This document shows positions 3,315-46,761 of a stretch of DNA of 64,000 nt, in pieces. The stretch is from the IMG/VR virus record IMGVR_UViG_3300042863_000214, positions 1-64,000 of that record, one strand, 5' to 3'. Made by a program: the position numbers and the translations under genes. The DNA comes from a virus. A model generated the notes under the pieces. That model saw nothing but the letters and a program-made list of their open reading frames with translations, ran no database searches and was not told where the DNA came from. Position 1 is the first letter of the stretch. Every line of letters starts with the position of its first letter.

Positions 3315-3343
3315 ATTATACTCTCTTTATACGTTAATTGCAA
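3315..3343 (-). promoter_or_regulatory. Sigma70-type promoter for the SGNH gene
   Basis: Minus strand: TTGCAA (3338-3343), a 17-base spacer, then TATAAT (3315-3320), then five bases to the ATG at 3309. It overlaps the end of the upstream carbamoyltransferase homologue. The predicted mRNA would be essentially leaderless. Confidence 0.6.
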
Positions 3344-30458: not shown

Positions 30459-31760
30459 ATGCCACGTTTATCCCTTTACAAGCCCGAGAAAGGCAATGAT
30501 TACAAATTTCACGATCGCAGTATATCTGAGATGTTTCAGGTAGGCGGTACTGACATATATCTGCACAAATACTTAGGACCTAAAAATCCCCTAACAGGTG
30601 AAAGTACTGCGGATATGCCTATGTACGATGCTGTAAAAGAAACAAATATACAAGATTTATTGTTCCTTGAAAATCGTGATAGAAAGTATGACAGCTCAAT
30701 TTATACAGTACGTGGCGTTTATAACGTATCTGACATTGACTTTAACCTAAGTCAGTTTGGTTTGTTCATTGACAATGACACAGTTTTTATGACTGTGCAT
30801 ATTAATGATTTTATCAAGTTAGTGGGACGTAAACCGCTAGCAGGTGATGTGGTAGAACTGCCGCACTTACGCGATGAGTTTGCACTTAATGATGCTGACC
30901 AAGCCCTTCCGAGATTCTTTGTTGTTAGTGAAGTTGGACGTGCCGCCGAAGGATTTAGTCGCACATGGTACCCACACCTATACAGATTAAAATTAGGCAA
31001 GATTGCTGATCAACAACAGTACTCAGACATTCTTAAAACTCCTACAGATAAAGATGCTAACTTTACAGGAGATTATAGTCCAACAACAACATATGCAGTT
31101 GGAGAAATTATTCGCTATCAAGGCACACTGTATCAAGTTACCGCAGCTACTACAGGCAGAGCTCCGCCAAATGCCAGTTACTTTAGTGTATACTCTGGCG
31201 CCACTATACAAAGCATTTTAAGTACACAGACAAAAAGTCTTGAGATCAATGATGCTATTCTTGACCAAGCAGAAGCCAATGCTCCTAAGAGTGGTTATGA
31301 AACCCAACAATTTTATTCACTATCTGCTGACGAGTTTGGTAACCCTGCACTTATCACAGTAGACGATGCAACAACTCCGCCAGATGCTTCTAGTATGCAG
31401 ATGGATGCAAGTAGAATCGGGGCTAGACCAAATCGTACTGGCTATAGCGGATACTTGTTAGGTGATGGCATTCCCCCTAATGGTGTTGATTTTGGGCACG
31501 GAATTGCCTTTCCTGCAGGTGCTATTGACGGCGACTTCTTCTTAAGAACTGACTTTTTACCCAATAGATTATTTAGATATGACGGATCACGTTGGGTTAA
31601 ACGTGAAGATGCGATTCGTACTACCTTGTCAAATACCGATACTAAACAAACTTTCAGAACTGGGTTTATTAATAATACAGCAACTGATAACATCGCTGGT
31701 GAGAATGTTGCAGAACGTCAAGCATTGAGTAAAGCACTTAAACCTAAGGCAGATTTATAA
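30459..31760 (+). CDS. 14: Neck protein (T4 gp14)
   Basis: A 433-residue neck protein that seals filled heads and joins them to tails. I chose the ATG at 30459 (MPRLSLYKPEKGND) because it matches the conserved gp14 N-terminus; an upstream in-frame start would lie in the divergent promoter. Conserved segments: FQVGGTDIYLHKYLGPKNP, IQDLLFLENRDRKYD, GVYNVSDIDFNLSQFGLF. Residues about 207-240 (YSPTTTYAVGEIIRYQGTLY...) resemble the carbohydrate-binding-like modules of the giant fibre and look like an inserted decoration. Confidence 0.88.
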   Translation: MPRLSLYKPEKGNDYKFHDRSISEMFQVGGTDIYLHKYLGPKNPLTGESTADMPMYDAVKETNIQDLLFLENRDRKYDSSIYTVRGVYNVSDIDFNLSQFGLFIDNDTVFMTVHINDFIKLVGRKPLAGDVVELPHLRDEFALNDADQALPRFFVVSEVGRAAEGFSRTWYPHLYRLKLGKIADQQQYSDILKTPTDKDANFTGDYSPTTTYAVGEIIRYQGTLYQVTAATTGRAPPNASYFSVYSGATIQSILSTQTKSLEINDAILDQAEANAPKSGYETQQFYSLSADEFGNPALITVDDATTPPDASSMQMDASRIGARPNRTGYSGYLLGDGIPPNGVDFGHGIAFPAGAIDGDFFLRTDFLPNRLFRYDGSRWVKREDAIRTTLSNTDTKQTFRTGFINNTATDNIAGENVAERQALSKALKPKADL

Positions 31761-33340
31761 TGCAATATTTTTATGACGGCCAGATACGCCGATACTTATT
31801 ACAGATAGTTAGACTACTAAGCAATTTTGTTGTTAGATACGGAGATGGTACACTAGTGCGTGTGCCGGTTATGTATGGCGACCAGGACCGTCAAGCAGCG
31901 ACTATTGTTAATCAAAACTCAGAAAATACTTTACAAAGTGCTCCGAGGATTGCAATATACATTACTGATCTTGATCTTGACAATACTCGTTTAGGAGATG
32001 CAACACTGGTTAGTAAGATGCATATTCGTGAACGCGACATTGACGAAAATGGAAACTATACTAGCACCCAAGGACAAAACTATACTGTTGAACGACTAAT
32101 GCCAACTCCATTTAAGTTATCAGTTAAAGCAGACATCTGGTCAACTAGTACAGAACAAAAATTACAAATTCTTGAACAAATCCTAGTATTGTTTAATCCG
32201 AGTTTAGAAATACAAACAACTGATAACTTTGTTGACTGGACATCATTAACCGTTGTTGACCTTGGTGATGTTAGTTTTAGTAGTCGCACAGTTCCGATGG
32301 GTACTGCTACGCAGATTGATGTTGCTACACTAACACTTACTACTCCTATATGGATTACTCCTCCTGCAAAAGTTAAGAAGTTAGGCGTTGTTACTAATAT
32401 TATTTCAAGCACATTTGATAGTTCTGGAATGAGCGATTCATACATTGACGGATTAGGTGTGTATGTTGATGCAGGGCAATCATATCCAGCAAACTCTATT
32501 GCAAGTGCAAAGACTACACTGGGTAACTTTGACATTGTTGTATCAGAAGGCAAAATTAAATTAGTCAGTAGTACGCAACCCGGAGTATGGTTAAATTGGC
32601 AGGTGATACTACAACAGCATCCTGGAAAATATACTGCTGGACTAGCAAAGATTTATTTGTTGCAACCTGACGGCAGTGAAGTTGTTGGCTACCTAAGTAT
32701 AAATCCGTTAGATGAATCTGAAATGATAGTTAACTGGGATGACGGCACATTTCCCACTAATGACATGGTTGCTGGCCCTACTAGATTATCGGGTCAATGG
32801 GGTAGTTTTGACGCAGTAATTGACCCTACAACTACAGGTCCAAGCAATTTAGTACTTGGTACTAGATACTTAATTATTGACAATATTGGTGGCGGTGTCC
32901 GTGATACGTTTGTTACTGGATTAAAAATACAAAGAATTAGTACATCAGTTGAGTTTGATAAAGTAAATGATTGTCATGTGTTCGTCAACGGAGTTGAAGT
33001 AGGTTTGATTACGCCTATAGAAAGAGATGGTAATTATGTTATTATTCTTGCTGCATTTATACCTGTAGGTAGCACAGTTACCTATGTATTAAATCTAAAT
33101 GAAGACGGTCCAGATGCTTGGAAAAATGATGACGGCACTGACTTTATTGCAGAAGCAAACGATATTATTGAATGGGATGGCAATAAATGGTGGGTAGTAT
33201 TTTCAGCAGGCGAAAACTCAGAAAACTTGATTTATCAAACAAACATCTATACACTAGTACAATACAAATGGAATGGCGTTAATTGGGTGAAAAGTTTTGA
33301 CGGTGACTACAGACGCGGAAGTTGGAGGTTAGAATTATAA
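31760..33340 (+). CDS. 15: Tail sheath stabiliser / completion protein (gp15-like)
   Basis: A 526-residue protein starting at the gp14 stop. The segments MQYFYDGQIRRYLLQIVRLL, SKMHIRERDIDENGNYTST, TVERLMPTPFKLSVKADIWS, EQILVLFNPSLEIQTTDNFV and TPIWITPPAKVKKLGV are typical of gp15 in cyanophage-type T4-like phages, which cap the tail and hold the sheath. The protein is much longer than T4 gp15 (272), as I expect for this phage group. C-terminal NDIIEWDGNKWWVVF continues the family pattern. Confidence 0.85.
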   Translation: MQYFYDGQIRRYLLQIVRLLSNFVVRYGDGTLVRVPVMYGDQDRQAATIVNQNSENTLQSAPRIAIYITDLDLDNTRLGDATLVSKMHIRERDIDENGNYTSTQGQNYTVERLMPTPFKLSVKADIWSTSTEQKLQILEQILVLFNPSLEIQTTDNFVDWTSLTVVDLGDVSFSSRTVPMGTATQIDVATLTLTTPIWITPPAKVKKLGVVTNIISSTFDSSGMSDSYIDGLGVYVDAGQSYPANSIASAKTTLGNFDIVVSEGKIKLVSSTQPGVWLNWQVILQQHPGKYTAGLAKIYLLQPDGSEVVGYLSINPLDESEMIVNWDDGTFPTNDMVAGPTRLSGQWGSFDAVIDPTTTGPSNLVLGTRYLIIDNIGGGVRDTFVTGLKIQRISTSVEFDKVNDCHVFVNGVEVGLITPIERDGNYVIILAAFIPVGSTVTYVLNLNEDGPDAWKNDDGTDFIAEANDIIEWDGNKWWVVFSAGENSENLIYQTNIYTLVQYKWNGVNWVKSFDGDYRRGSWRLEL

Positions 33341-33771
33341 ACGAACTAATTGATTGTTCCGGTGCGTTAATTTGCGCACGAACAACAAAAAGATTTTTAT
33401 TGCTGCAAAAGTCTGAAGGTAAACATGCAGGACGTTGGGGGTTAGTCGGGGGTACTAATCATTCTAACGAATCTGCGTGGCAGGGTCTACAACGAGAAAT
33501 TGAAGAAGAATTAGGTGCAATGCCTGATATTAAAAAGACTATTCCACTTGAACGATTTGTTAGCAATGATAGTATGTTTAATTTTCACACATACTTCTGT
33601 ATTGTAGATGAAGAATTTATCCCCAAACTCAGCGACGAGCACGTTGCATGGGGATGGTTTAATTTAGAAAGTTTACCTAAACCTGTGCATAAAGGACTAG
33701 ATCTTAGTTTGCGAAATCGAATTATTCAAAGCAAGATACAAACAGTTACTGATATCATTGACTTGATTTAA
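33322..33771 (+). CDS. Nudix hydrolase
   Basis: A roughly 145-149-residue Nudix enzyme hydrolysing a nucleoside diphosphate linked to another moiety. The Nudix box Gx5Ex7REUxEExGU is complete in GGTNHSNESAWQGLQREIEEELG-type sequence (two Gly, then Glu, then REIEEELG). There is no ATG start. GGAGG at 33324-33328 points to ATT at 33334 or ATA at 33337; TTG at 33322 is the alternative. It overlaps the gp15 end, and its 3' end overlaps the convergent halogenase by 17 bases. The substrate cannot be predicted. Confidence 0.85.
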   Translation: MEVRIINELIDCSGALICARTTKRFLLLQKSEGKHAGRWGLVGGTNHSNESAWQGLQREIEEELGAMPDIKKTIPLERFVSNDSMFNFHTYFCIVDEEFIPKLSDEHVAWGWFNLESLPKPVHKGLDLSLRNRIIQSKIQTVTDIIDLI

Positions 33772-35236
33772 TGTAATCAATCCATTGTTTGTGATTAACT
33801 GCGTGTTTTCTTAAATCTAATTTAATTTTCTTTATTTGTTCCGATGCATGTTTAGCATGTTGCATCATGTGTTTAGACGTTAGATATCTTTCAATTCCTT
33901 GTTTCGTAAATCTTCCGTGGCCGTACCCAATAGATGTATAGCTGCTAGAACCAAACATTCCTATCTTAGGGAAATCTCGGGGCCCCGGAAATGCATTTAA
34001 TAACTTAGTATCTAAATCTTGTAACCATTTTGGTGTATTGTTAGTTAAATATTTCCAAAATTCAGAGTCGGTTCTTTTTGTATGATAAAAAAACCTAATA
34101 TACTCAACACTGTTTTCATACATACGTGTTGAAAATATATTATAAGCATCGGAATCAATTTGACATTTAATTAATGAATGCGTACTAGTTATAGTATCTA
34201 ATTGACTGTATGTATTATGCAAACTAGTTGCTTCAAGAGGTTCTACAAATCCGCTTGCTAATCCAATAGCAATACAGTTACCGATCCATTGTTCCTTCCA
34301 GTATCCGTTATTAAACTTAATAACTCGATCACTTGCTAATTCAGTACCGTGTGTTTTTAATAGCCATTGGTTAAAGTCTTTTTTAGCCTCTTCGTCGGAT
34401 GTAAATTCTGACGAATATACATATCCAGTACCTCGTCTATTAGATAATGGAACATCTAGTATCCATCCGTTCTTTGTTGCGTCAGCCGTAGTATAAGGGG
34501 GAATATAATCAAAATCTTTAAACAATGGGTTAGGGATTGTACGGTTAGTTGGTAGCTGATCAGTTACGTCAATCCATTCTGGATTTAAATGTTTAATTAG
34601 TGCATACTCTAAACCAGATGCATCTATGAACAAATCACTAGTAATAGTATCGCCCGATGCTAATACTAAATTTGTAATTTCTCTATGTTCAACATTAACT
34701 TGTTGCACAATGCCGTCAACAATATTAATTTTATCTTTGAATTTTGATTCAATATATCTTCCAACAAGATTAGCATCTATGTGCATGGCATGTCTATAAG
34801 ACAAATTATCTACCCCGAATATTAAATTATTATCATAGTAAAAACTATCATAGTTGTATGAATTTTCATATTGGTCGTGCAATATATCATACGCATCTAC
34901 TGCATTAAAGTCTGCAATTGTAGGATCAGTAGCATTAATTGCTTGATTAATTGGAAAGCTATGATGCCACTCGCTGCCTTCGTGCGTCCAGTTTTTAAAT
35001 TTTAAACCTAGTTTAATAGTTGCATTGCAGTTCTGTATCAGCTCAACGGTGGTTATGCCAACTGTTTTTAAATAGTTGTCAAAAATAGGAGTCAGACTTT
35101 CGCCAACACCTATTCCGGGTTTCTTATGATCATATATCATAGTAACATCAACTAGGTCGCCCCAATAAGACTTGAAATATGTTGCTGCCATAACACCGGC
35201 GGTGCCTCCGCCTACTACTGTAATTTTATAAGTCAT
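33755..35236 (-). CDS. Flavin-dependent halogenase homologue (tryptophan halogenase family)
   Basis: A 493-residue protein of the PrnA/RebH family, which uses FADH2, O2 and halide to halogenate aromatic carbons. N-terminal GxGxxG: GGGTAG (9-14); second flavin-binding GVGES (43-47); the conserved lysine that activates hypohalous acid is probably Lys75 in NATIKLGLKF. The signature WxWxIP appears as WILDVP (258-263), with the second Trp replaced by Leu. A FVEPLEATSLHNT segment carries the expected Glu. It is last in the leftward island operon and abuts an oxygenase gene with no gap. Confidence 0.88.
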   Translation of the reverse strand: MTYKITVVGGGTAGVMAATYFKSYWGDLVDVTMIYDHKKPGIGVGESLTPIFDNYLKTVGITTVELIQNCNATIKLGLKFKNWTHEGSEWHHSFPINQAINATDPTIADFNAVDAYDILHDQYENSYNYDSFYYDNNLIFGVDNLSYRHAMHIDANLVGRYIESKFKDKINIVDGIVQQVNVEHREITNLVLASGDTITSDLFIDASGLEYALIKHLNPEWIDVTDQLPTNRTIPNPLFKDFDYIPPYTTADATKNGWILDVPLSNRRGTGYVYSSEFTSDEEAKKDFNQWLLKTHGTELASDRVIKFNNGYWKEQWIGNCIAIGLASGFVEPLEATSLHNTYSQLDTITSTHSLIKCQIDSDAYNIFSTRMYENSVEYIRFFYHTKRTDSEFWKYLTNNTPKWLQDLDTKLLNAFPGPRDFPKIGMFGSSSYTSIGYGHGRFTKQGIERYLTSKHMMQHAKHASEQIKKIKLDLRKHAVNHKQWIDYIKSSQ

Positions 35237-35863
35237 TTATTGGGCATCCTTTGCCATTCCGTAGGCAATATTTATTATTACGCGACGATCTACATCGTTG
35301 GGAGTCGCGCTCGCATGATAGTGTCCGCCATCAAACCCTAACAATCTATTTCGTTGAGGAGTTACAGTTTGTAATACCGTTTCCTTTCCTAGATAATTTT
35401 CTTTAAAATATTCAAAACTTGCTGAAGCAAAATCTTCATATTTTGATTTGTCTAAATTAAAATCGTATTTTTCGTTATATATTACTGTAGGAGAATTTGA
35501 ATCAGTTAGATATAATATTCCCACTCGATGAGGAAATGGTAGATCAATATGCGGATCGTTAGTATATTGGCCGCAAGTACGCGGCTGTAGTACTACTCGC
35601 ACTCTAAATATTTGATCTGCAGGTTGCCCTATTTTATCTATACAGTCAAACAGTATAGGTTGTAGTAATACTCCGATGTCATTCTGAGTTTGTCCGTCAA
35701 TAATTGGATAATTTGTAAAATTAAAAGGGTGAGGATTGGTACTAGTAAGTTTTCCAAAAGGATACGTAATTGGACTATAGTGCCAAGGAAAGTCATATTC
35801 TAAAATTTTATTTTCTAATAAATTAAGAACTGACAGGGAAAGTGCGTTGTCTATTATTTTCAT
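35237..35863 (-). CDS. 2-oxoglutarate/Fe(II)-dependent oxygenase-like protein, HxD type
   Basis: A 208-residue protein with HID in NDPHIDLPFPHR (about residues 104-106), distal His in GGHYHASATP and Arg in DRRVIINIAYG, a full iron and 2-oxoglutarate set on a jelly-roll pattern (VGILYL, SPTVIYNEK). It ends exactly where the halogenase begins and starts inside the stop of the next oxygenase (ATGA), so the three are co-translated. It could hydroxylate or otherwise oxidise the same substrate as the halogenase. Confidence 0.82.
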   Translation of the reverse strand: MKIIDNALSLSVLNLLENKILEYDFPWHYSPITYPFGKLTSTNPHPFNFTNYPIIDGQTQNDIGVLLQPILFDCIDKIGQPADQIFRVRVVLQPRTCGQYTNDPHIDLPFPHRVGILYLTDSNSPTVIYNEKYDFNLDKSKYEDFASASFEYFKENYLGKETVLQTVTPQRNRLLGFDGGHYHASATPNDVDRRVIINIAYGMAKDAQ

Positions 35864-36522
35864 GGTAGCACCGACCTAACATTTCCGGCCACGGATATCC
35901 TGTAACCGTCACTTGTGTAAAAAGGATTTACACTGTGATTTAATTTTGACGGGAATAATATAATTGTCCCTTCGTGATTCTTATCTACTTCAATCATAAA
36001 ATGTCGGTGTTGCCCCATTAAATTTGAATAATGAAATGTAAATTTAGATGTTCTATTAGCGTTGGGGCCGCCGCTAACTATAGGAAAATATGCTTCTTCA
36101 GCTGCTAAGTCATATGGAATATTGATCCATATAACAAAACTTGCAATGCCCGTATGCTCATGGGGAGGATTAAATTCGTGTTTTTTTTGAATGTTTACCC
36201 ATAAATCTGTTAATTTTAGATACTTAACTATGCTACTGCCAGAGTCGTCGTAATGTTCAAGCAAATTCCATTGTTGATCATACATATTAACTAAATTTAA
36301 AATATAAGGTTCAATTCTAGAAATACAATTAGATAGATCGTATTCATGTTTCATATGGCCGAGCAACTTATGGTTGAATTGTTGCTGTGATTTAAAATCA
36401 CTTGTGATTAGTTCTTGTATTTCTAAATTTAACATGGCTAGCATATCAGTCGGAACTTGATCCGACAACACACCAATATTTGGAAGTTCGTTATATCTTA
36501 CCTTAGACATATTATCTGACAT
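35860..36522 (-). CDS. 2-oxoglutarate/Fe(II) oxygenase-like protein, HxH type
   Basis: A 220-residue protein with PPHEHTGIASFVIWINIP (about residues 118-135) and a C-terminal LNHSVNPFYTSDGYRISV giving distal His and Arg. The near motif is HxH rather than HxD, as in the putative oxygenase family I know as 2OG-FeII_Oxy_5/TIGR02466. Structural core strands are visible on both sides. AGGAAAGAG precedes the start, which overlaps the carbamoyltransferase stop by 11 bases. Confidence 0.72.
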   Translation of the reverse strand: MSDNMSKVRYNELPNIGVLSDQVPTDMLAMLNLEIQELITSDFKSQQQFNHKLLGHMKHEYDLSNCISRIEPYILNLVNMYDQQWNLLEHYDDSGSSIVKYLKLTDLWVNIQKKHEFNPPHEHTGIASFVIWINIPYDLAAEEAYFPIVSGGPNANRTSKFTFHYSNLMGQHRHFMIEVDKNHEGTIILFPSKLNHSVNPFYTSDGYRISVAGNVRSVLP

Positions 36523-38335
36523 AGTTATTCTCTTTCCTGTGATTTATTTTTACTGTAATTAATTTATTAAATTCTGGCAGAAACAAATATTCAATATCAG
36601 AATTTTGTAATGTCCAAATAGCATCTTCTAGTGTTTCAACTAATGGCTCTCCTCCTAAGTTAAAACTAGTATTAAATATAATAGGACATCCAGTTTGATT
36701 ATAGAATTCTTTAATTAAATTATAGTAATGAAAATTTTGTTGTTCTGTAACAGTTTGTATGCGGCAACTACCGTCAACATGAATAATACTAGGTATCTTT
36801 TCTGCAATGCCAGGTCGACAATTTACTGCATACATCATATGTGGGCTGCTATCCATACCTCTTAGATCAAACCACTCGTGTGCGTATTCATGTAAAATAC
36901 TGCCAGCAAAAGGACGGAAGTATTCTCTATGTTTAACTTCATTAACATAGTCTTTACCGTCAACAAATCGCGGATCAAATAGCACACTTCGATTACCTAG
37001 CGCACGTGGGCCGTTTTCAGATTGCCCTTGATAAATTGTTACAATATTTTTGTTAATTAATAGATTAACTACATCACTATAATACGCATCAATAATTTCT
37101 ACATCACTAGCATGTGCTGTGTCTATAACATAATCAACAGTATAATTATGTTTAGGTCCTAAGTATAAAGTTTCAAATTTTCTAATAGTCGTATCTTGGC
37201 TTACATGGCGCCATAAAAACATAGCAGCACCCATTGCAGTGCCAGCATCATTGCTAATTGGCTCTACATAAATTTCGATACCATCATCTTTTAGTGCATC
37301 AAGATAGTGATAGTTAGCAACACAGTTTAAGCCGTAGCCGCCACTGATTACTACACGCTTATTACCTGTCATACTAACTGCTTTCTTAATTAGCTTAACA
37401 ACTTCAGCTTGAGTTTGAATTTGTGTAGCATATGCCACATCTCGTCTATTTTGAAGTAAACTAACATCTTCGTCTGCAACAGCTATGTTGTCTAAATAAG
37501 GGGCTGCAAGTTTATTAATTTTTGCTCCGGCCGGATAAGTTGGTATAACTAAATTTCTATTAGATAATGACCTAGGGCCTTCATCAATAAATAGTGCAGG
37601 AATTTCAGTAGATGGCTGTCCGTATGGAAATAACCCCATAGTTTTTCCAGCTTCAATTTCTTGAAATCCGCAATACAGCGATGCAGCCTCGTACACTTTT
37701 ACAATACCTGCCCTGTCTGAAAACAATGCCTCGTATGTATTTCCGGGCTCGCTAATCCACTCACTGTCCATTGCAGGTTCTAATTTTGGAATAATGTTAA
37801 ATTTAGTAGCATGGTGTTTGTAGTGCGTTTTAATTTCTGCAGGATACTTACAACTAAAAATTGATTCTGTTTCCCAAGTGGTAATATCTATATTATCAAT
37901 AACTGTAGGGAAAAATGTTCCAGCGCCGTCTACTACTAATGCAGTGGCAGACTCCCATCCAGATCGATAAAATGCACATGCAGCATGTAATTTATGATGT
38001 ATATTACACATGTCAATAACTTGAGGATGTTTACCAAAATTATGTGCCCTGCTAATTAATCCTAGTTTTCTAGCAAACCCAACATATATATTATCCCCAG
38101 TAAATTCTATATTACCTGCGGTGTCTAAGGGAGTAGTGTGAGAAAACACCATATAATCAAGTTTATCAGTGTACTCTAAAATTTTAAGTATACTAGCAAA
38201 CGGACCTCCGTCGTATTTGCATCTAGTAAGCCTTTCTTCTTCTACAGAAAATACAATTTCACCATCTTTTAACAAACACACCCCGGCGTTATGTCCTCTG
38301 GCAAATCCTGCAATCCATACTGGTTGTTTATTCAT
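36512..38335 (-). CDS. O-carbamoyltransferase (NodU/CmcH/TobZ family), full length
   Basis: A 607-residue enzyme predicted to transfer a carbamoyl group from carbamoyl phosphate to a hydroxyl of a sugar or other metabolite. N-terminal Kae1-like domain: GHNAGVCLLKDGEIVFSVEEER-type opening, metal site HHKLHAA (113-119), VVDGAGTFF. C-terminal domain: SENGPRALGNRSVLFDPR, KHREYFRPFAGSIL and FNTSFNLGGEPLVET, all family hallmarks. It lies in the middle of the island operon, flanked by HxH oxygenases three bases upstream and overlapping downstream. Length matches bacterial enzymes (about 570-610). Confidence 0.93.
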   Translation of the reverse strand: MNKQPVWIAGFARGHNAGVCLLKDGEIVFSVEEERLTRCKYDGGPFASILKILEYTDKLDYMVFSHTTPLDTAGNIEFTGDNIYVGFARKLGLISRAHNFGKHPQVIDMCNIHHKLHAACAFYRSGWESATALVVDGAGTFFPTVIDNIDITTWETESIFSCKYPAEIKTHYKHHATKFNIIPKLEPAMDSEWISEPGNTYEALFSDRAGIVKVYEAASLYCGFQEIEAGKTMGLFPYGQPSTEIPALFIDEGPRSLSNRNLVIPTYPAGAKINKLAAPYLDNIAVADEDVSLLQNRRDVAYATQIQTQAEVVKLIKKAVSMTGNKRVVISGGYGLNCVANYHYLDALKDDGIEIYVEPISNDAGTAMGAAMFLWRHVSQDTTIRKFETLYLGPKHNYTVDYVIDTAHASDVEIIDAYYSDVVNLLINKNIVTIYQGQSENGPRALGNRSVLFDPRFVDGKDYVNEVKHREYFRPFAGSILHEYAHEWFDLRGMDSSPHMMYAVNCRPGIAEKIPSIIHVDGSCRIQTVTEQQNFHYYNLIKEFYNQTGCPIIFNTSFNLGGEPLVETLEDAIWTLQNSDIEYLFLPEFNKLITVKINHRKENNYVR

Positions 38336-38338
38336 ATT

Positions 38339-38947
38339 TTATCCTAACTCTAAATCTGCGCCAGACCATTCAGCTCTAATATTGCCTTTAACAAATGTAT
38401 TAAATGCAATAGAAATTCGTTCATTCAAAGTTACATTTTTTTTCACATAGTGAAAACATTGTGATGGAAAAATAACAATACAATTATCTTCAACAGGTAA
38501 TTCCCATTCTAATGAATTAAAAAAATTGTATTCGCTTGCGTTTACATTTAGTAGTAATGGCGGAGTTAATCTACAAAATGTAATTGACGGAGTACTATCT
38601 TTAGTTTTTATGTACAATACTCCGGACACTATGCTGTTATTATGATTATGTGCATTGTGAGATTGATTTTCTTGCGTTACATTTAACCAAGAGTTTGTCA
38701 TATGCAATTTATAATCGTATTTCATAACTTCGGTGTAATATATTTGAGCATGATCTAAACAAACTTTCTTCAACCTAGAAAATACTGGATTATCTAATAA
38801 TCTACTATCAAATGATGTATTATTACCCAATGCCTGTAAATGCATATCGGTTGAGTAAATAGCATTTAATTCTGGCTGTGTAAGTTCAAATGCAAGATTT
38901 TTTTTATATATTACTGACGGAAAGAGTGGAAATATTTCATAGTCCAT
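38339..38947 (-). CDS. 2-oxoglutarate/Fe(II) oxygenase-like protein, HxH type
   Basis: A 202-residue protein of the TIGR02466/2OG-FeII_Oxy_5 type. It starts with the family pattern IFPLFPSVIYKKNL, has NSWLNVTQENQSHNAHNHNN followed by SIVSGVLYI, and a C-terminal PSQCFHYVKKNVTLNERISI with distal His and Arg. It is clearly related to the 202-residue protein at 39897-40505; both have the same length and layout. GAGGA ribosome binding site; three-base gaps to both neighbours. Confidence 0.78.
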   Translation of the reverse strand: MDYEIFPLFPSVIYKKNLAFELTQPELNAIYSTDMHLQALGNNTSFDSRLLDNPVFSRLKKVCLDHAQIYYTEVMKYDYKLHMTNSWLNVTQENQSHNAHNHNNSIVSGVLYIKTKDSTPSITFCRLTPPLLLNVNASEYNFFNSLEWELPVEDNCIVIFPSQCFHYVKKNVTLNERISIAFNTFVKGNIRAEWSGADLELG

Positions 38948-38950
38948 ATG

Positions 38951-39892
38951 TTATTCCTCTATATTTGTTTTAACAGATTGTACAACTTGGTTAAGTTGAT
39001 CAGTAGTTAATTTCATAATCGATTCGTTAGTTAAATCTGCAACTTCATCATTGCACAATCTTATAGGAGAGTAAGTTTTTTTACCTTCTCCAAAATCTAA
39101 AATATCAAACCCGCCGTAATCAGGATATGATACATTTTCTTTAAATGTGCTGCCTAGTATAACTGTTGCTTTTTTATTTAGACCAAATGCCGCATGTTGT
39201 CCCACACTATCGCATCCTAAAAAATAATCCGATGCATTAATAATGGCAAACCACTGACGCAATGATAACCCTGTAATCTGGGCTGTATCTACATTTTCGT
39301 AACCTGCTTCTTTAAAGTTAATGTCGTGCTCACACATCAACACAACTATATACTGTTGTTGCAACGATCTAATAATTGTTGCTACATCTCCTATGAAAAA
39401 TGATTTTCCAAAAGTATCTACACCTATGCCAGTATTGTGCAGATTTGTGCCTCTACCAAATGGCTGAAATACTATTGTTTTTTTATTTCCTTTGTCTTTT
39501 TTAATAAGATTAATTGTTTCTATAGACCCAGTTAGTTCACTATTAGATAATACAATAGTAGGTGGTAACAACTTCCTTACTCCCTTGTTGTTTATAGCAA
39601 TATCAAATGCTTGCGAAATTGTGGCTAAATTATTATAGTATTCCCATACTTGATAAGGTTCTGGGAATTTATAGACTCGATCTTTAATTTTATCATGAAA
39701 TAAATTTTTATGATGAAACTCAAAACATCGCTTGTATAGTGTTGGATGTCCTTTAAAAAAATTTATCCCGTGTTCGACAATTATAACAAAATCATCGTTA
39801 GGATTTTCTTGTTCGTATAACTCTAATGCAGGAATTGAACATAATACCCTTCCTGCACCTCCATTAATTAAAAATACTGTTGATCGTTTCAT
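38951..39892 (-). CDS. Glycosyltransferase, family 9-like
   Basis: A 313-residue protein resembling the ADP-heptose:LPS heptosyltransferase family (GT9). N-terminal Rossmann half: STVFLINGGAGRVLCSIPAL and DDFVIIVEHG; C-terminal half: VVLMCEHDINF and FLGCDSVGQHAAFGLNKKA followed by TVILGST, the usual donor-binding pattern with Asp-Ser and His. Substrates cannot be read from sequence. It is embedded in the halogenase operon between two related oxygenases, suggesting that the modified target is, or carries, a sugar. Confidence 0.75.
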   Translation of the reverse strand: MKRSTVFLINGGAGRVLCSIPALELYEQENPNDDFVIIVEHGINFFKGHPTLYKRCFEFHHKNLFHDKIKDRVYKFPEPYQVWEYYNNLATISQAFDIAINNKGVRKLLPPTIVLSNSELTGSIETINLIKKDKGNKKTIVFQPFGRGTNLHNTGIGVDTFGKSFFIGDVATIIRSLQQQYIVVLMCEHDINFKEAGYENVDTAQITGLSLRQWFAIINASDYFLGCDSVGQHAAFGLNKKATVILGSTFKENVSYPDYGGFDILDFGEGKKTYSPIRLCNDEVADLTNESIMKLTTDQLNQVVQSVKTNIEE

Positions 39893-39896
39893 ATAA

Positions 39897-40505
39897 TTAT
39901 AGTTTTAAATAGGTCAAACCTTTTTCAGTTCCAAATTCACCGCGAGCAAATACATTAAACGCAATACTTACTCGTTCGTATTCAGTTTCATTCTTATCAA
40001 CACTATGATAGAGCGGCGACGGAAATAACACAATTGAGTTATTTTTTACCTGCACTTTCCAAAAGTCACTATTCCATATGTTGAAAGAACTTCTCTCCAT
40101 ATTTAATAGGGCCACTTCAGATCTTCTATGAAAAACAATATTGTCATTATCGCTAGTTTGTAAATAAAATGTGCCACTAATAATGCTATTATAGTGGTAA
40201 TGTATATGATGTTCGGTATCTTTTGGGTTAACATTAACCCACGACTGTGTAATATAAAATTCGTTAGAATCCCACATCATTATATTTTTAGTATAATGAT
40301 TAATTTCGGTTTGTATCAACTCCCTAATTTCTGCAAACATTGGTTCAGACAAAATGTCTCGATTGTGGCTTGCAAAATTGTGGCCGGCGTTTTGATAAAA
40401 TTTTAATTCTTTACAATAATTAAGAACGTGCTGAAATTTCTGCTCCGGAATATCAAGAGTTGTTGTATATACAGGAACTGAAAATAACGGAATTATTTCA
40501 CTCAT
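39897..40505 (-). CDS. 2-oxoglutarate/Fe(II) oxygenase-like protein, HxH type
   Basis: A 202-residue protein with family opening IIPLFSVPVYTTTL, QSWVNVNPKDTEHHIHYHYN followed by SIISGTFYL, and C-terminal PSPLYHSVDKNETEYERVSI. The HYH motif stands where classical enzymes have HxD. It is a sister of the protein at 38339-38947. The start overlaps the halogenase stop by eight bases, pairing this oxygenase with that halogenase. Confidence 0.78.
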   Translation of the reverse strand: MSEIIPLFSVPVYTTTLDIPEQKFQHVLNYCKELKFYQNAGHNFASHNRDILSEPMFAEIRELIQTEINHYTKNIMMWDSNEFYITQSWVNVNPKDTEHHIHYHYNSIISGTFYLQTSDNDNIVFHRRSEVALLNMERSSFNIWNSDFWKVQVKNNSIVLFPSPLYHSVDKNETEYERVSIAFNVFARGEFGTEKGLTYLKL

Positions 40506-42087
40506 TATGTATGTTTGTTTTTAAATATTGAAATAACGAAGGCAGATTTTTTGCAACATCTTGCCATTTTGTCTGAAGATTGCGTCGTCTAGAAACAAAG
40601 GTATCTACTTGTGATTTAACATCAGTTCTAAAAACATGTGATGCAAAAATAGTATTAAGTTTACTCATAACAAAAAAATGCATACCAGTTGCTACACAAT
40701 GTATTCCGCCAAAATCTCCATGATTGAAATAAAACATTTTTCTATTTGCTAGATCATGGAACCCTTTTCCAAGAGTTGGTATTAGTTTTGTCATCTTTGG
40801 ACTAAATGTTTTATTGGAAATTGTTCTCCAATATTCTGTATCATCTCTAATACTTAATGCATAATGCATTGCTACAAATTCTGCAAAATTGTTATATAAT
40901 TCCAAGGTTGCAGAATTATATACATCTCGATCCCATTGTGTTACGTATCCTTCTCGATCCAATGTTGCAACTACTTTAAATAGGAATTCATGTACAGTAA
41001 ATAATCCGTTACTTTCAAGAGGTTCAATAAACCCTGCACTTAATCCAATTGCAACTACATTTTTAACCCAAGTGCGTTCGTGGATTCCAATACGCATAGT
41101 AATATCTTTATAAGTTAACGCTTCTACCTGCTCTTTAGTTCGTGGCACAGTCATTTTGTCGCTCATTAGATACTGTTTAAATTCTTCCTTAGCATCTTCA
41201 GGGCTAACAAATTTATCACTGTAAACATACCCGGTACCAAGTCTACTCCATAACGGAATATTCCAACACCATCCGTTATTGATAGCCGTACAATTTGTGT
41301 AGGGTTCTAATTCTTTTTCAATTTCTACGTAGGGAACTTGCACAGCCCATGCACGATTGTTAGGTAACATATCTGCATAAGAAATAAAAGGTTCCGCTAG
41401 TGCTTCGCCTAATAGCATACTTTTCCATCCAGTGCAGTCAACAAACAAATCAGCAACTATTTCGTCACCATTCTCCATAATTAATTTTTCTATGCCAGAG
41501 TCTGAAGTTTTAATGTTGGAAACAGTATCTTGAATACGGATTACGCCGCGGGGAATACAATAATGATCACATAACCATTTACCAAATAGAACTGATTCAA
41601 AATGATATGCTACATCTGTGTCAGGTCTATAATTATCAAAGCCGGTGGGATCATTAGTAAATTTATTATTTTCTATGATTGGCATTGTTGAAAAATACGT
41701 TCTGCAATAATCTTCAACTGGGGTTTCAGGATAAAATACCTTTTTAGCCTGCCAATCTTTTACACCGCCTCCTACGTCATCTCCCACAGGAGTACCAAAC
41801 GGGTAGTGAAATGACCCTGCATCCTTATTATAAAAATCGGTAAATTTAATGCTCATTTTATAAGAAGCGTTAGTATACTTCATAAAATCTTGTTCGTCTA
41901 TTCCTAAGGCATGCATCCAATGCCTAATACCGCCTAGTGTGCTTTCACCAACACCTACAATTGGAACATCTGGACTTTCTATTACTGTTATTTTCTTATT
42001 TGGAAAAAAGTTAATTAAGGTGGCAGCAGTCATCCAACCTGCGCTGCCGCCGCCAACTACTACAATATTTTCGATTTTTTTAGGCAT
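40498..42087 (-). CDS. Flavin-dependent tryptophan halogenase family protein, canonical motifs
   Basis: A 529-residue protein with every family hallmark: GGGSAG (12-17), GVGEST (45-50), the lysine region NASYKMSIKF (Lys77 and Lys81), WCWNIP (273-278, exact WxWxIP), and GFIEPLESNG with candidate Glu355/Glu358. Length is close to PrnA and RebH (about 530-540). It is expected to need a flavin reductase, probably from the host; none is visible here. A viral member, VirX1, is known from a cyanophage. It is first in the leftward operon, with GAGGA and a GATAAGTA promoter motif upstream. Confidence 0.93.
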   Translation of the reverse strand: MPKKIENIVVVGGGSAGWMTAATLINFFPNKKITVIESPDVPIVGVGESTLGGIRHWMHALGIDEQDFMKYTNASYKMSIKFTDFYNKDAGSFHYPFGTPVGDDVGGGVKDWQAKKVFYPETPVEDYCRTYFSTMPIIENNKFTNDPTGFDNYRPDTDVAYHFESVLFGKWLCDHYCIPRGVIRIQDTVSNIKTSDSGIEKLIMENGDEIVADLFVDCTGWKSMLLGEALAEPFISYADMLPNNRAWAVQVPYVEIEKELEPYTNCTAINNGWCWNIPLWSRLGTGYVYSDKFVSPEDAKEEFKQYLMSDKMTVPRTKEQVEALTYKDITMRIGIHERTWVKNVVAIGLSAGFIEPLESNGLFTVHEFLFKVVATLDREGYVTQWDRDVYNSATLELYNNFAEFVAMHYALSIRDDTEYWRTISNKTFSPKMTKLIPTLGKGFHDLANRKMFYFNHGDFGGIHCVATGMHFFVMSKLNTIFASHVFRTDVKSQVDTFVSRRRNLQTKWQDVAKNLPSLFQYLKTNIHNE

Positions 42088-42102
42088 TTGTATTCCTCTA
42101 TG

Positions 42103-42154
42103 CAGTTACTTATCACGATGTTAACAAGGAGTGAGAATTCCTGATAAGTAACTG
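42103..42154. promoter_or_regulatory. Divergent promoter/operator: 13-bp perfect inverted repeat
   Basis: CAGTTACTTATCA (42103-42115) and TGATAAGTAACTG (42142-42154) are perfect inverse copies around 26 bases. Each arm reads GATAAGTA facing outward, one toward each halogenase operon, and each is followed by a ribosome binding site (GAGGA leftward, AAGG rightward). The spacer also contains GTTAAC and AAGGAG. It may be two promoters, an operator, or both. Confidence 0.6.
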
Positions 42155-42174
42155 TACAACAAGGCTACGTTATT

Positions 42175-42903
42175 ATGAATGGTACTGTACGAGATAGTAA
42201 TTGGAAATTCTCAGAATTTAAAAGCAAACCTCCTAAGAGTCCGTTTGCCCCAATTTACCATTATATATTTGCTGAAAACTTTATTGAGGGTATAGATTTT
42301 AAAAAAATTGCAAATATAATCTTAGAAAAAGAAAAGATAATTATTAACACAACTCCGCCAACAACTGCTGCGTATACCGGATTAGGTAATGATAGTTTAA
42401 CCTCGCGCTGGAAGTCATTTAATGTGTTTTCATGGACAGAACCAGAGATAGAAAAATTAAAAGTTCAAATACATGAGAAATATTTAGAATTTCTTCAAGC
42501 ATATAATGTGCCTAGATCAAATGTTATGATACAATGCTGGGCCAATGTAATGCGAGAAAGTGAAGAAATGTGTCCGCATATCCACTCAACCGATGAATGG
42601 TCATATTTAGGCGGGCACGTGACAGTGCAATGTGAAGATACTAGTACAGTTTATATAAATCCAATAAATCAAATTAACGATCCAGAAATATATGTTAGTT
42701 ATAATCGGATAGGAAAAATTACACTATTTCAACATAATATTCCGCACTACACTACTCCGCATCATAGTACAACTAACTCCGAACGAATTACCCTTGCTTT
42801 CGATATTTCTCTGTCAGAATTTGTTAATTTGTTTGAGCATAATGATCACCCCGAGTGGCATAATTATGTAATCTTTGATAACCCAACTGGAAAAGAATTA
42901 TGA
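42175..42903 (+). CDS. 2-oxoglutarate/Fe(II) oxygenase-like protein, HxH type
   Basis: A 242-residue protein. The segment MIQCWANVMRESEEMCPHIH followed by STDEWSYLGGHVTV is the counterpart of the SWLNV...HxH...SGVxY core, and FQHNIPHYTTPHHSTTNSERITLAF gives the distal His and Arg. It is more distant from the 202-residue sisters. First gene of the rightward two-gene operon; AAGG lies ten bases before the ATG. Its stop overlaps the next start (ATGA). Confidence 0.72.
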   Translation: MNGTVRDSNWKFSEFKSKPPKSPFAPIYHYIFAENFIEGIDFKKIANIILEKEKIIINTTPPTTAAYTGLGNDSLTSRWKSFNVFSWTEPEIEKLKVQIHEKYLEFLQAYNVPRSNVMIQCWANVMRESEEMCPHIHSTDEWSYLGGHVTVQCEDTSTVYINPINQINDPEIYVSYNRIGKITLFQHNIPHYTTPHHSTTNSERITLAFDISLSEFVNLFEHNDHPEWHNYVIFDNPTGKEL

Positions 42904-44069
42904 AAATAGCTGTTATAGGTGTAGGTACTGCTGGTATAACCTCATTGAGTCATGCACTTCGTTGGCTAGGTAATGAGGATGACACTGTTACTGCAATATA
43001 CGATCCGAATGTAAAAATTCTAGAAATAGGTGAATCGATGGATCCAGGATTTCCTACAGTGCTGTTCGAAGGCGCTGGCTTTACACTACTAGAAGATGCA
43101 GACAAGCTAGATGCTACACTAAAATTAGGAGTTACTTGGAAGAATTGGAGAGATACAGACTTTACTTCCCTAATGCATCCACCGCAATATGCTATGCATT
43201 TTAACAATGGTAAATTAAAAAATTTTTGTTTTGGTCGATTTAAAAAAATATGGGGCGATAGATTTAAAACAATAGAAGGATCAGTTACTGATCTTACTAG
43301 TACTGTTAATCTAGCAACTGTTACTGTTGACAATGTCAGCCACCATTTTGATTTTGTAATCGACTGTAGAGGAACTCCAAAAGACCTAACAGATTACAAT
43401 GTCATTAATGATCCTGTTAATCACTGCTTAGTAAACGTCATAAATGAACCAGGCACATGGGGAACTACAATTCATCAAGCACATGCCAACGGTTGGATGT
43501 TTGGTATTCCGTTAACTACTAGACAAGGTTGGGGTTACTTGTATAACGATAAAATTACTTCAAGAGAAGATGCAGTAGCGGATATTGAAAAAATCTTTAA
43601 TACTACAGATTTAAATCTAAAAGAGTTTAAATTTAACAGCTACTATGCAAAAAGTTTTTTTAATGGACGCATAATTAAAAATGGTAATGCCGCATTGTTC
43701 TTTGAACCGATGGAGGCGCTATCCGGCTATTTTTACAGTACAGTTATGAGAAACTTAACTGATTACATTTATGGGCAATGTTCAATAGATGATGTTAACT
43801 ATAGACTAACTGAAGCTGCACAGGATATTGAAAATTTTATTAATTTTGCATATCACGGTGGCTCAACTTTTGATAGTGAATTTTGGAAAACTACGGTTGC
43901 TACTACTACTAATAAATTGCAAACTGATCAACGATGGGCTGAGACTGTTAAAGATATAAAATCATGTATTTCTAATGGAAAAATTATTCAAGAAAGGTCT
44001 GTTGCAAGATGGTACATTAGACACTGGATTAACTGGGATAAAAATTTAGGGTACAAATATTTTTCTTGA
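42900..44069 (+). CDS. Divergent, short flavin-dependent halogenase homologue
   Basis: A 389-residue protein, about 100-140 residues shorter than the other two. It keeps GVGTAG (7-12), IGES (43-46), a lysine in DATLKLGVTW (Lys75) and a FFEPMEALSGYF segment carrying the expected Glu. The signature is WMFGIP (199-204), with Phe for the second Trp. The substrate-side segments are reduced, so it may act on a different or larger substrate, or be a non-halogenating flavin enzyme. Translationally coupled to the oxygenase upstream; a terminator follows. Confidence 0.78.
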   Translation: MKIAVIGVGTAGITSLSHALRWLGNEDDTVTAIYDPNVKILEIGESMDPGFPTVLFEGAGFTLLEDADKLDATLKLGVTWKNWRDTDFTSLMHPPQYAMHFNNGKLKNFCFGRFKKIWGDRFKTIEGSVTDLTSTVNLATVTVDNVSHHFDFVIDCRGTPKDLTDYNVINDPVNHCLVNVINEPGTWGTTIHQAHANGWMFGIPLTTRQGWGYLYNDKITSREDAVADIEKIFNTTDLNLKEFKFNSYYAKSFFNGRIIKNGNAALFFEPMEALSGYFYSTVMRNLTDYIYGQCSIDDVNYRLTEAAQDIENFINFAYHGGSTFDSEFWKTTVATTTNKLQTDQRWAETVKDIKSCISNGKIIQERSVARWYIRHWINWDKNLGYKYFS

Positions 44070-44110: not shown

Positions 44111-44665
44111 TTATACCGGTTCTACTGGTGGTATTATTAGTGCAAGTGGATCCAATCTTGGTAGCGGTGGTGGAGCTATTGCATACTTGGTATCTTTTGA
44201 CGGTTTTGTCGGCGGCTCTGGCCAGGGTACATCAATTCTATCTTTTAAGATATCAATATCAGTAGTATCGGTAATGTTCCTGAGAGCTGCTCGATAAATT
44301 GTCCATTGTGCCCTTTCTTCATCACTAATTGGAGCATCAGGGAGTTGAGTCCAGTCGCAAGATATTAAGTAATATTCTCGTGGGCCTAGAATCCATCTTC
44401 TTATTTTTTCTTCTCGTGAAATTTCCGTAACAGACCACATCTGCTCAATTTTACCTTGGGCGTTTTTAACAATTTCACCTTTTGTAACTTCGGTGTATGT
44501 TTCAAGTGCGGGCATTTCAGAATTATTAACTACAGAAAACCCTTGCGTCAAGGCAAATTCGTCATCCCAGTCGGTACCCATTCCAAAGACATGATTTAAA
44601 TTTTCTTGGGTTATTGGGTATGATGCAGGATCTCCATTCTCATCAATCTTTACATATATTTTCAT
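44111..44665 (-). CDS. Tail fibre / tail assembly chaperone-like protein
   Basis: A 184-residue protein. The segment REYYLISCDWTQLPDAPISD followed by WTIYRAALRNITD matches the phage tail assembly chaperone family (Phage_tail_APC type), whose members sit next to and help fold fibre proteins. The N-terminus is beta-rich, and the last 35 residues are Pro-rich (PWPEPPTKPSKDTKY, PPPLPRLDPL). It lies 23 bases downstream of the glycine-rich fibre gene, with GAGGA before the start. Confidence 0.8.
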   Translation of the reverse strand: MKIYVKIDENGDPASYPITQENLNHVFGMGTDWDDEFALTQGFSVVNNSEMPALETYTEVTKGEIVKNAQGKIEQMWSVTEISREEKIRRWILGPREYYLISCDWTQLPDAPISDEERAQWTIYRAALRNITDTTDIDILKDRIDVPWPEPPTKPSKDTKYAIAPPPLPRLDPLALIIPPVEPV

Positions 44666-44688: not shown

Positions 44689-46761
44689 TTATTGATTAGC
44701 TGTACCAGTGCTTGGATATGATCGGCCCGGTCCCCAAATGATACGGACTGCACCTTTGCCGCCCCAGCCGCCGCCTTGGCCGGTTCCGCCTCCGCCTCCG
44801 CCGCCACCATAGTTGCCACCGCAGGCAAATCCGTTACCCTGACCGTTTGAATATGGTTCTCCGTATTTGCCACAAGTTCCGCCGGATCCACCTTGGCCGG
44901 CACCGCCTGATGTACCATGGCCTGTGCCGGGATTGCCACATGCACCGTCTGTACCTTGGCCAAGGATGCCTGTGCCGCCACCGCCTCCTGTGCCGTGAGT
45001 TGATGAGTGGTGGCTGGTTGCGCTGCCACCACCGCCGTAGCATCCTCGATATCCAGAAGTGGCTGCATTACAGTTAGTTGGGCCATAACCGCCAGCGCCA
45101 CCGCCACCTCCGGCTGTATCTGGATACGCTACCATACCACTACTACCGCAGGCAGCAGTGTACGAACCGCCATAGGCGCAACATCCTTGGCAACATCCGC
45201 AACGACCGCCGCCGCCCATAAAGTTTGGAAAACATGAATATCCGCCACCGTTGCCGCTCCAGCAGCCACCGTCTCCAACTTGAACTGTGTAACTGGACCC
45301 TGGGGTGACAGGTATTCCTGCTCCCCATGCCATGCCGCCGCCTGATCCGCCGCACACAGCCCACCCATAATAGCCGCCACCGCCTGCGCCAATTACAGCC
45401 ACACTCACTGTGGAAACACCAGCAGGTGCAACCCATGTATATGCTGTTACACCGCCATTGGTACCGCTTTGAGATCCTTCATACAAAATTTGGCCTACTG
45501 GAGGCGGTATTATAAGATAAAAGGTAAATGCCCTATCAACGTTTTGCGTAGGCGATCCGCCAGTTGCTCGTAAAGTAAACGTGTAAGTAGTATTTGATGT
45601 TGCAGACGGAGTCCCACTAAGAAGACCATTTGATGCTAGGCTCATGCCTGCTGGTACTGAACCAGATATTAAACTATATGAAACTGAATCTCCAGCAATG
45701 TTGCCCGCTGCAAAAGCATAGGACATTGAACCAGTCGTTTTAGTAAGATAAATTGTTGAAGGTGTTGACCAAGAAATTTTAGTATCAACATAGTTTTTAG
45801 ATGCTGCGTGAGTTGAACTTGATGGTTCAGGTACAATGATAGTACTAGAAAAAGTAGCTGCACCCGACATTGTAATTGTTGAGTTAGCTGCTAATGTAGT
45901 AAATGCTCCTGCTGCTCGAGTAGTACCACCAATTGGGGTATTTTGTATGCCGCTGGATGCTGATGTAATTGTACCGCCAACGTTTAAATTTTCACTGACA
46001 CCTACACCGCCTGTTACAACTACTTGACCAGTGCCAGTAGTAGTACTGGTTGTGCCACCAGTCATGGTCACTTGTGCATTTGAACCTAGTGTGGTAAATG
46101 CGCCTGCGGCCCGAGTAGTACCACCAATGTTTGTGTTATTAATGTTACCGGTAGTAGCAGGACTCATTGCTACTGTACCAGTACCAGTTGGACTGATTGT
46201 TACAGTAGCATTTGATGGGCTTAATCCCACTGCTGCATTAGCATCTAGTGTAGTAAAATTACCGGCGCCTCTAGTAGTGCCGCCAATTGCTACATTATTG
46301 ATTGTACCAGCAGTTGCTGGAGCAATAGTAACAGTACCAGATCCTGTTGGACTAGCTGTTACGTTTGCGTTTGCCGGACTTAACGATACTGTACTGTTTG
46401 CAGTTAATGCACCACTAAATGTACCAGCTGTAACCGAAATTGGACCACCTTGATTATTAGTAATAATATAATCTGTGCCATTTGATGTTAGAGTATAAGT
46501 GGTATTATTTGGAATAATTTGAGTAGTAGCAGCCGTAAATCCATTACCAATTATATTTCCAGCTGATGTTTGAATAGTTACATTGCCACCTGTGGAGTTG
46601 TATATACTTTGAATTGTGCCCGGAAATGGTACTGGGGTCGATAATGTTAAGGTGTAACCTGCTGTGCCGGATAATAAAATTGTAGACTTATCAAGTACGT
46701 AGGTTAGTGTAGTAGCCTCCGTTACTGAAATTGTCGATTGTGTAGTGTTAAAACGTGCCAT
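44689..46761 (-). CDS. Tail fibre / adhesin with Gly-rich, Cys-rich tip
   Basis: A 690-residue virion adhesin. About 1-130: beta-rich N-terminus. About 130-320: tandem repeats with IGGTTRxAGxFTTL seen three times. HAASKNYVDTKISW at about 320 is a common fibre motif. About 340-410: putative Ig-like domain (SVPAGMSLASNGLLSGTPS). From about 430: a polyglycine region with many Cys (RCGCCQGCCAYGG) ending GGKGAVRIIWG. Polyglycine-rich tips are known in T4-like adhesins such as gp38 of phage S16, where loops between glycine helices bind receptors. Downstream chaperone gene fits. Confidence 0.85.
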   Translation of the reverse strand: MARFNTTQSTISVTEATTLTYVLDKSTILLSGTAGYTLTLSTPVPFPGTIQSIYNSTGGNVTIQTSAGNIIGNGFTAATTQIIPNNTTYTLTSNGTDYIITNNQGGPISVTAGTFSGALTANSTVSLSPANANVTASPTGSGTVTIAPATAGTINNVAIGGTTRGAGNFTTLDANAAVGLSPSNATVTISPTGTGTVAMSPATTGNINNTNIGGTTRAAGAFTTLGSNAQVTMTGGTTSTTTGTGQVVVTGGVGVSENLNVGGTITSASSGIQNTPIGGTTRAAGAFTTLAANSTITMSGAATFSSTIIVPEPSSSTHAASKNYVDTKISWSTPSTIYLTKTTGSMSYAFAAGNIAGDSVSYSLISGSVPAGMSLASNGLLSGTPSATSNTTYTFTLRATGGSPTQNVDRAFTFYLIIPPPVGQILYEGSQSGTNGGVTAYTWVAPAGVSTVSVAVIGAGGGGYYGWAVCGGSGGGMAWGAGIPVTPGSSYTVQVGDGGCWSGNGGGYSCFPNFMGGGGRCGCCQGCCAYGGSYTAACGSSGMVAYPDTAGGGGGAGGYGPTNCNAATSGYRGCYGGGGSATSHHSSTHGTGGGGGTGILGQGTDGACGNPGTGHGTSGGAGQGGSGGTCGKYGEPYSNGQGNGFACGGNYGGGGGGGGTGQGGGWGGKGAVRIIWGPGRSYPSTGTANQ

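Follow-up and report, generated by a model that had tools for sequence, protein, structure and literature searches.

The 64,000-nucleotide window analysed here (the whole stretch of DNA, positions 1-64,000 of IMG/VR record IMGVR_UViG_3300042863_000214, the full viral contig of which comprises 98,432 bases) carries an island of ten genes, at positions 33755-44069, encoding three homologues of flavin-dependent halogenases, five proteins resembling 2-oxoglutarate (2OG) oxygenases, an O-carbamoyltransferase (CT) and a heptosyltransferase-like glycosyltransferase of family GT9. With a probability that we place at roughly two in three, on the grounds of gene linkage, predicted fold and motifs, these enzymes modify the receptor-binding fibre tip of the phage itself by heptosylation and carbamoylation, supplemented by hydroxylation and halogenation. 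Sugar and carbamoyl genes stand beside a similar tip gene in about 90 other viral sequences, and are therefore likely to modify the structure with which the virus holds on to its host cell. The core of the cassette is the GT9-CT pair beside a Gly/Cys-rich tip protein and its assembly chaperone, and not the halogenases. In the window, the core genes are the following.

36512-38335, minus strand: CT, full-length O-carbamoyltransferase of 607 residues, matching PF16861 (Carbam_trans_N; E = 6.9e-57) and PF02543 (Carbam_trans_C; E = 8.6e-27).
38951-39892, minus strand: GT9, heptosyltransferase-like glycosyltransferase of 313 residues, assigned from its AlphaFold model (predicted local distance difference test, pLDDT, 91.5), fold matches and homologues with PF01075.
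44111-44665, minus strand: APC, tail fibre assembly chaperone (PF16778, E = 1.7e-12; phrog_4912, tail fiber assembly).
44689-46761, minus strand: ADH, fibre protein with a Gly/Cys-rich C-terminal tip domain (about residues 420-690; alignment A1), the proposed substrate.

The use of GT9 as a bait instead of the halogenase retrieved 78 further viral contigs, 77 of which encode a CT no more than three genes from GT9, with oxygenases in 12 and halogenases in only five. A Gly/Cys-rich tip open reading frame (ORF) lies within ten genes of GT9 in 72 of these contigs, the remaining six holding 8-11 genes only. The tip-like ORFs typically number three and match PF21722 or phrog_4205; in most contigs they lie upstream of GT9 at a distance of two to seven genes, and in the examples inspected Gly makes up about 15-20% and Cys 9-11% of their residues. 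Since many virion proteins are rich in Gly, a generic test for a nearby Gly-rich ORF is weak; the Gly-plus-Cys criterion is sharper and was chosen post hoc, with nine contigs from a second collection (genome assemblies, all of them metagenome bins) providing an independent repeat. Tip, GT9 and CT occur in the same order in all nine, several of which also carry the chaperone. The reverse search gave the same picture among isolates, all 16 records that match a tip protein also matching GT9; in the records inspected, the tip gene precedes GT9 by about 2-4 kb. Tip-like ORFs account for 15 of the 1795 genes of ten large records (98-345 kb), and in each of the six that have GT9 they lie two to six genes away from it. 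Relatives of this GT9 were found in at least 578 IMG/VR stretches, which indicates that the system is common.

Together with its neighbouring chaperone, ADH has the predicted character of a Gly-rich phage adhesin of the Pam3 gp24/S16 gp38 kind, although the fold match is weak. Alignment A1 of the tip contains invariant Gly and aromatic positions, and the predicted fold of ADH is best matched in the PDB by the Pam3 tail fibre (7ypx; E = 2.5e-3, a weak match) and then by the glycine-rich domain of ALK. Searching the tip sequence against the PDB gave no match, and an IMG/VR search with the tip alignment was saturated by low-complexity patterns and returned only four loci. The Gly-rich domain of the Pam3 fibre is held to be the receptor binder and the chaperone to be required for folding (PMC9608196). 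The Pam3 gp24-gp25 fibre/chaperone pair and the S16 gp38 adhesin therein share with the island phage a Gly-rich distal domain and an adjacent assembly chaperone, but the available part of that source reports no modification enzymes, and the island-phage tip is also rich in Cys.

The glycosyltransferase has the attributes expected of a GT9 heptosyltransferase, namely a predicted GT-B fold resembling that of WaaC and WaaF, a CDSxGQH motif and the family profile in its homologues. The top fold matches of the model are 3tov, 1psw (WaaF), TibC and WaaC, and its best 26 structure matches are all GT9 or adenosine diphosphate (ADP)-heptose transferases, TibC among them. The window protein alone has no Pfam match, and PF01075 is matched by eight of 14 homologues. 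TibC heptosylates an adhesin, and the TibC/BAHT protein heptosyltransferase is a dodecamer with iron. The island GT9 resembles the TibC/AAH-type heptosyltransferases of autotransporter adhesins in its predicted fold and in the adjoining adhesin gene, with ADP-heptose as a possible common donor, but is shorter (313 residues) and about 10% identical, and differs in being associated with a Gly/Cys-rich fibre-domain tip and a carbamoyltransferase partner. Distant relatives (27-31% identity) are found beside tail genes in the N4-like Vibrio phage SBP1 and Aeromonas phage HJ05 (loci L171:8001-8735 and L170:7995-8918), with neighbours of about 4% Cys. Marine contigs (L091:9128-9961, 10929-11861; L109:11002-12825) have a nitrilase-like CN_hydrolase gene just before GT9 and, between GT9 and CT, one or two genes unassigned to a family, whose products have FGCS close to their start and look SGNH-like on inspection by eye.

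Candidate genes for the sugar donor accompany the pair in part of the set, two or more ADP-heptose genes adjoining it in 17 of the 78 contigs and also in P-SSM2, S-CAM3 and S-SSM7. For S-SSM7 and two contigs, the best NCBIfam matches are an HldE-like kinase and adenylyltransferase and an HldD-like epimerase, with scores under the curated cut-offs; the gene annotated as phosphoheptose isomerase was tested in one contig, where it gave a weak match to a HAD-type capsule biosynthesis phosphatase. A cupin annotated as 'cysteine dioxygenase' accompanies the ADP-heptose genes (L104:15904-16281; L005:23368-23769), and might be either the absent sugar isomerase or an enzyme acting on the Cys-rich tips.

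As judged from its sequence, the CT is of the NodU/TobZ O-carbamoyltransferase type, with both the N- and the C-terminal domains present and alignment to solved enzymes (PDB 7xb6 and 9s2t, GdmN and TobZ), and in the CT tree it belongs to the GT9-linked set. In S-CAM8 and S-SSM5 (L266:3477-6243; L267:3480-6257) a CT is found without GT9, directly adjoining proteins that consist of 30-34% Gly and are nearly devoid of Cys, which suggests that CT may also act without the sugar. Five contigs (L058-L062) have the carbamoyltransferase in three overlapping ORFs with the same boundaries, for which frameshifts, a split form of the enzyme or some unusual element could account. The window also encodes, at 3327-4271 on the minus strand and near a DnaB-like helicase gene, a 314-residue protein corresponding to the N-terminal half only of a Nol-like carbamoyltransferase (phrog_1601).

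The remaining eight genes of the island encode the putative halogenases and oxygenases.

33755-35236, minus strand: HALa, flavin-dependent halogenase homologue of 493 residues (PF04820, Trp_halogenase, E = 1.9e-85; equivalents of PrnA K79, E346 and W272 retained).
35237-35863, minus strand: OXb, probable 2OG-type oxygenase (phrog_274, E = 1.3e-32, with the doubtful label 'DNA endonuclease V'; motif HxD...H...R).
35860-36522, minus strand: OXc, 2OG-FeII_Oxy_5 family protein (PF13759, E = 3.9e-11).
38339-38947, minus strand: OXd, 2OG-FeII_Oxy_5 family protein (PF13759, E = 2.9e-18).
39897-40505, minus strand: OXe, 2OG-FeII_Oxy_5 family protein (PF13759, E = 8.6e-20; HxH site in common with PDB 2rg4 and 3bvc).
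40498-42087, minus strand: HALb, VirX1-like flavin-dependent halogenase of 529 residues (best solved relative VirX1, 6qgm, E = 5.5e-102; WxWxIP, K79 and E346 retained).
42175-42903, plus strand: OXf, divergent 2OG-oxygenase-like protein (phrog_81, E = 1.6e-18; Pfam just under the cut-off).
42900-44069, plus strand: HALc, short halogenase homologue of 389 residues (PF04820, E = 2.9e-29; catalytic Lys, Glu and Trp positions retained).

By profile (E = 6e-102 for HALb with Trp_halogenase) and by the presence of the catalytic Lys (PrnA K79) and Glu (E346), HALa, HALb and HALc are all predicted to be flavin-dependent halogenases of PF04820. The Lys equivalent to K79 is the first of FKAAIKF and is conserved in HALc; the first Trp of WxWxIP is present in the three proteins, with the full motif in HALb only (WILDVP in HALa and WMFGIP in HALc). 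Their mutual identity of 25-29% indicates that they are not recent copies of one another. A halogenase copy lies two to three genes from a Gly-rich ORF in seven of eight halogenase-bearing records. HALb shares motifs with VirX1 of cyanophage Syn10 (PDB 6qgm), a gene that stands beside the fibre genes in syn9, a near relative of Syn10; the island differs in holding three divergent halogenases together with GT9 and CT. The active site of VirX1 is open and accepts large substrates (PMC8407142), which we count in favour of modification of the fibre tip. In Campylobacter phage IBB_35 (L082), a divergent halogenase lies between the DNA ligase and tail sheath genes.

Three island proteins score above the cut-off of the PF13759 profile and OXf just below it (25.7 bits versus a gathering cut-off of 27). 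OXb has no Pfam match, and PHROG 274 carries the label 'DNA endonuclease V', so that the protein was accepted as an oxygenase on its motif only; the label is probably wrong, reflecting misannotation of 2OG-type proteins. At the metal/cosubstrate site HxD/E...H...R, OXb has HxD and OXc-OXf have HxH instead, with the distal His and Arg kept; PDB entries 2rg4 and 3bvc also carry HxH in place of HxD/E. A second phrog_274 protein, with HxD and the distal H...R, is encoded outside the island (28431-28946, minus strand), between gp13 and a deoxynucleoside monophosphate (dNMP) kinase gene. The families named in the initial annotation were thus largely recovered, the three halogenases, the two-domain CT and four PF13759-type proteins with Pfam and PHROGs, GT9 through fold and homologues, and OXb by motif only. 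All ten ORFs lie where that annotation had placed them, and they are indeed tightly packed, neighbours either overlapping by 4-11 bases or standing 0-4 bases apart, except for a single divergent gap of 87 bases at 42088-42174. A scan for promoters and terminators revealed no enrichment over shuffled sequences.

The position of the island between neck and fibre genes, as first described, was also borne out. To its left lie T4-type genes for the gp15 sheath stabiliser and gp13, with a NUDIX gene; to its right are the tail-assembly chaperone (PF16778), the 690-residue protein with an end rich in Gly, Cys and aromatic residues, and very long fibre genes.

31760-33340, plus strand: gp15-type tail sheath stabiliser at the left border (PF16724, E = 8.9e-23).
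33322-33771, plus strand: NUDIX hydrolase (PF00293, E = 3.3e-16), adjoining the island in several relatives by gene order.
47125-57933, minus strand: long tail fibre gene of 3602 residues in the right border region, identified as an ORF, with homologues that adjoin the cassette in relatives.

The terminase shares 50-56% identity with its nearest relatives, those of the jumbo phages PA5oct, Phosso and Atu_ph07, which places the phage, by sequence, as a relative of PA5oct/Atu_ph07-like jumbo phages and not as a cyanophage; the earlier designation 'T4-like' therefore holds in the wide sense only. One contig of 120 kb has an identical island, and others, at 73-92% identity, retain the run entirely or for the most part. 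In more distant contigs, among them one of 345 kb, halogenase, oxygenase, GT9 and CT genes stand beside the tip and chaperone genes with no neck genes nearby, which indicates that the cassette follows the fibre locus. That its neighbours in distant phages are fibre genes, and not always neck genes, speaks for the fibre tip as substrate. Versions of the cassette occupy the gap between the fibre genes and gp13 in the cultured cyanophages S-SSM7, Sf-CH11, Sf-FS3, S-RIM44 and S-CAM3, and stand beside fibre genes in syn9, S-CREM1, P-SSM2 and S-SRM01. The S-SSM7 cluster comprises two carbamoyltransferases and a halogenase besides GT9, 2OG oxygenases and ADP-heptose genes, and in syn9 several oxygenases accompany two halogenases; in S-CREM1 a single halogenase has close to it seven genes annotated as 2OG oxygenases and one as JmjC, and the halogenase of S-SRM01 has a tail fibre gene on one side and a gene annotated as an adhesin tip on the other. 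The linkage of the families in related phages is supported; the suggestion that this phage cluster is without counterpart is not, since similar runs occupy the same place in the public genomes of S-SSM7, syn9 and S-CREM1.

From the gene content, families, GT9 fold, catalytic residues and conserved tip-chaperone-GT9-CT linkage that were computed, we infer what the substrate is, in which order the steps follow, that heptose is the donor in the island phage, and what the benefit would be. Modification would take place in the host cytoplasm during the folding of the Gly/Cys-rich tip protein (44689-46761), assisted by the chaperone (44111-44665). GT9 would move heptose or a similar sugar from an ADP-activated donor onto the tip, and CT would next add a carbamoyl group to the tip-bound sugar. 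The 2OG-type oxygenases may hydroxylate side chains, possibly including some sugar acceptor sites, and the halogenases may act on Trp, Tyr or other aromatic side chains, both steps being optional. The outcome would be a receptor-binding surface with chemical diversity, which may benefit binding strength or host range, or protect an adhesin unusually rich in Cys and aromatic residues.

Several points weigh against this proposal. The linkage of the halogenases is looser, further copies lying 8-106 genes from the Gly-rich ORF (eight records), and in HTVC008M and Campylobacter phage IBB_35 the halogenase gene does not adjoin the fibre genes. The tips of halogenase-bearing loci show no significant enrichment in Trp or Tyr, with His being higher and Phe lower. 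The tip model is of low confidence (pLDDT 51), confident in its first half only, and no ADP-heptose genes were seen within the window. Because the contigs are related by descent, the counts are not independent. The tip linkage could stem from insertion at a common hot spot, or from late expression, and not from enzyme-substrate pairing.

Among the alternatives, the one that survives best, albeit as a rather unlikely one, is that the enzymes change the lipopolysaccharide (LPS) or another surface glycan of the host during infection, resulting in superinfection exclusion or receptor masking. GT9 and the ADP-heptose enzymes are classic LPS genes, and gene clusters in P-SSM2 were earlier named 'LPS biosynthesis' (PMC2984593). 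However, the genes are situated within the fibre locus, with the tip or chaperone gene on one side and the next fibre gene on the other, and the linkage to the Gly/Cys tip holds from both the GT9 and the tip sides; no surface-glycan transport or ligase genes were seen beside the GT9-CT pair, and LPS modification is a poor fit for halogenases and oxygenases.

The ten island genes include no scaffold synthase, in agreement with the initial annotation, and no carrier protein or exporter, which makes it improbable that a host metabolite is modified or a signal or antibiotic made, as proposed for cyanophage PrnA. The families are typical of natural-product tailoring and VirX1 iodinates small aromatics in vitro (PMC8407142), but most contigs carry GT9-CT without a halogenase and nearly always beside fibre genes. 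The natural-product framing first given to the island is thus weaker than modification of the fibre tip, and the expectation that the substrate is a pre-existing macromolecule gains support, the neighbouring fibre-tip protein being the most likely one.

A homologous carbamoyltransferase produces 5-carbamoyloxymethylcytosine (5cmC) in phages (PMC8670742), and a dNMP kinase is encoded at 27727-28422, which would fit the placing of carbamoyl, glycosyl, hydroxyl and halogen groups on hypermodified genome bases. That enzyme shares the Carbam_trans family with the island CT, but is tied to thymidylate synthase homologues, the co-occurrence of which marked modified contigs in that study (PMC8670742); PF00303 (thymidylate synthase/hydroxymethylase) is absent from seven cassette records, most of them possibly incomplete. 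Moreover, a single clade of GT9-linked CTs that leaves out the ThyX-linked CT of S-RIM44 is compatible with the data (p-AU, from the approximately unbiased test, 0.706, in a tree with several long branches), and the cassette tracks fibre genes rather than replication genes. The lack of PF00303 and the GT9-linked clade disfavour DNA modification, which we hold to be very improbable. It is just as doubtful that the genes are passengers gathered at a hyperplastic site near the fibre genes with no shared substrate, since, although gene content varies among relatives and halogenase copies occur elsewhere in the same genomes, the GT9-CT order and the adjacency to the tip gene are too constant for a random hot spot.

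The single gene families are already known in cyanophages, where earlier readings assigned them to LPS or to metabolism. Sullivan et al. (2010; PMC3037559) tabulated them separately and, in the available part of that article, did not treat the clusters as one system. The 'LPS biosynthesis' or auxiliary metabolic clusters of P-SSM2, S-SSM7, S-CAM1 and S-CAM3 contain the same GT9-CT-ADP-heptose block beside tip genes, but are annotated as a hypothetical protein, a Nol-like carbamoyltransferase and heptose genes, and are not tied to the fibre in the available parts of those sources. No description of a tip-GT9-CT fibre-modification module was found in the open-access literature (subscription journals and preprints lay outside the search). 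The odds are about even that this is a widespread, undescribed phage system that places carbamoylated heptose on Gly/Cys-rich receptor-binding tips, with hydroxyl groups and halogens added in some phages.

If modification of the fibre tip is correct, the adhesin would gain chemistry beyond that of the twenty amino acids, and viral halogenases such as VirX1 would have a natural substrate. In marine and freshwater phages, the 'orphan' viral halogenases would share a purpose with the Nol-like carbamoyltransferases, the 2OG oxygenases and the ADP-heptose genes, replacing their loose 'auxiliary metabolism' labels, and phage host recognition would depend on post-translational chemistry that is invisible to sequence-based host-range prediction and to work with recombinant tail fibres.

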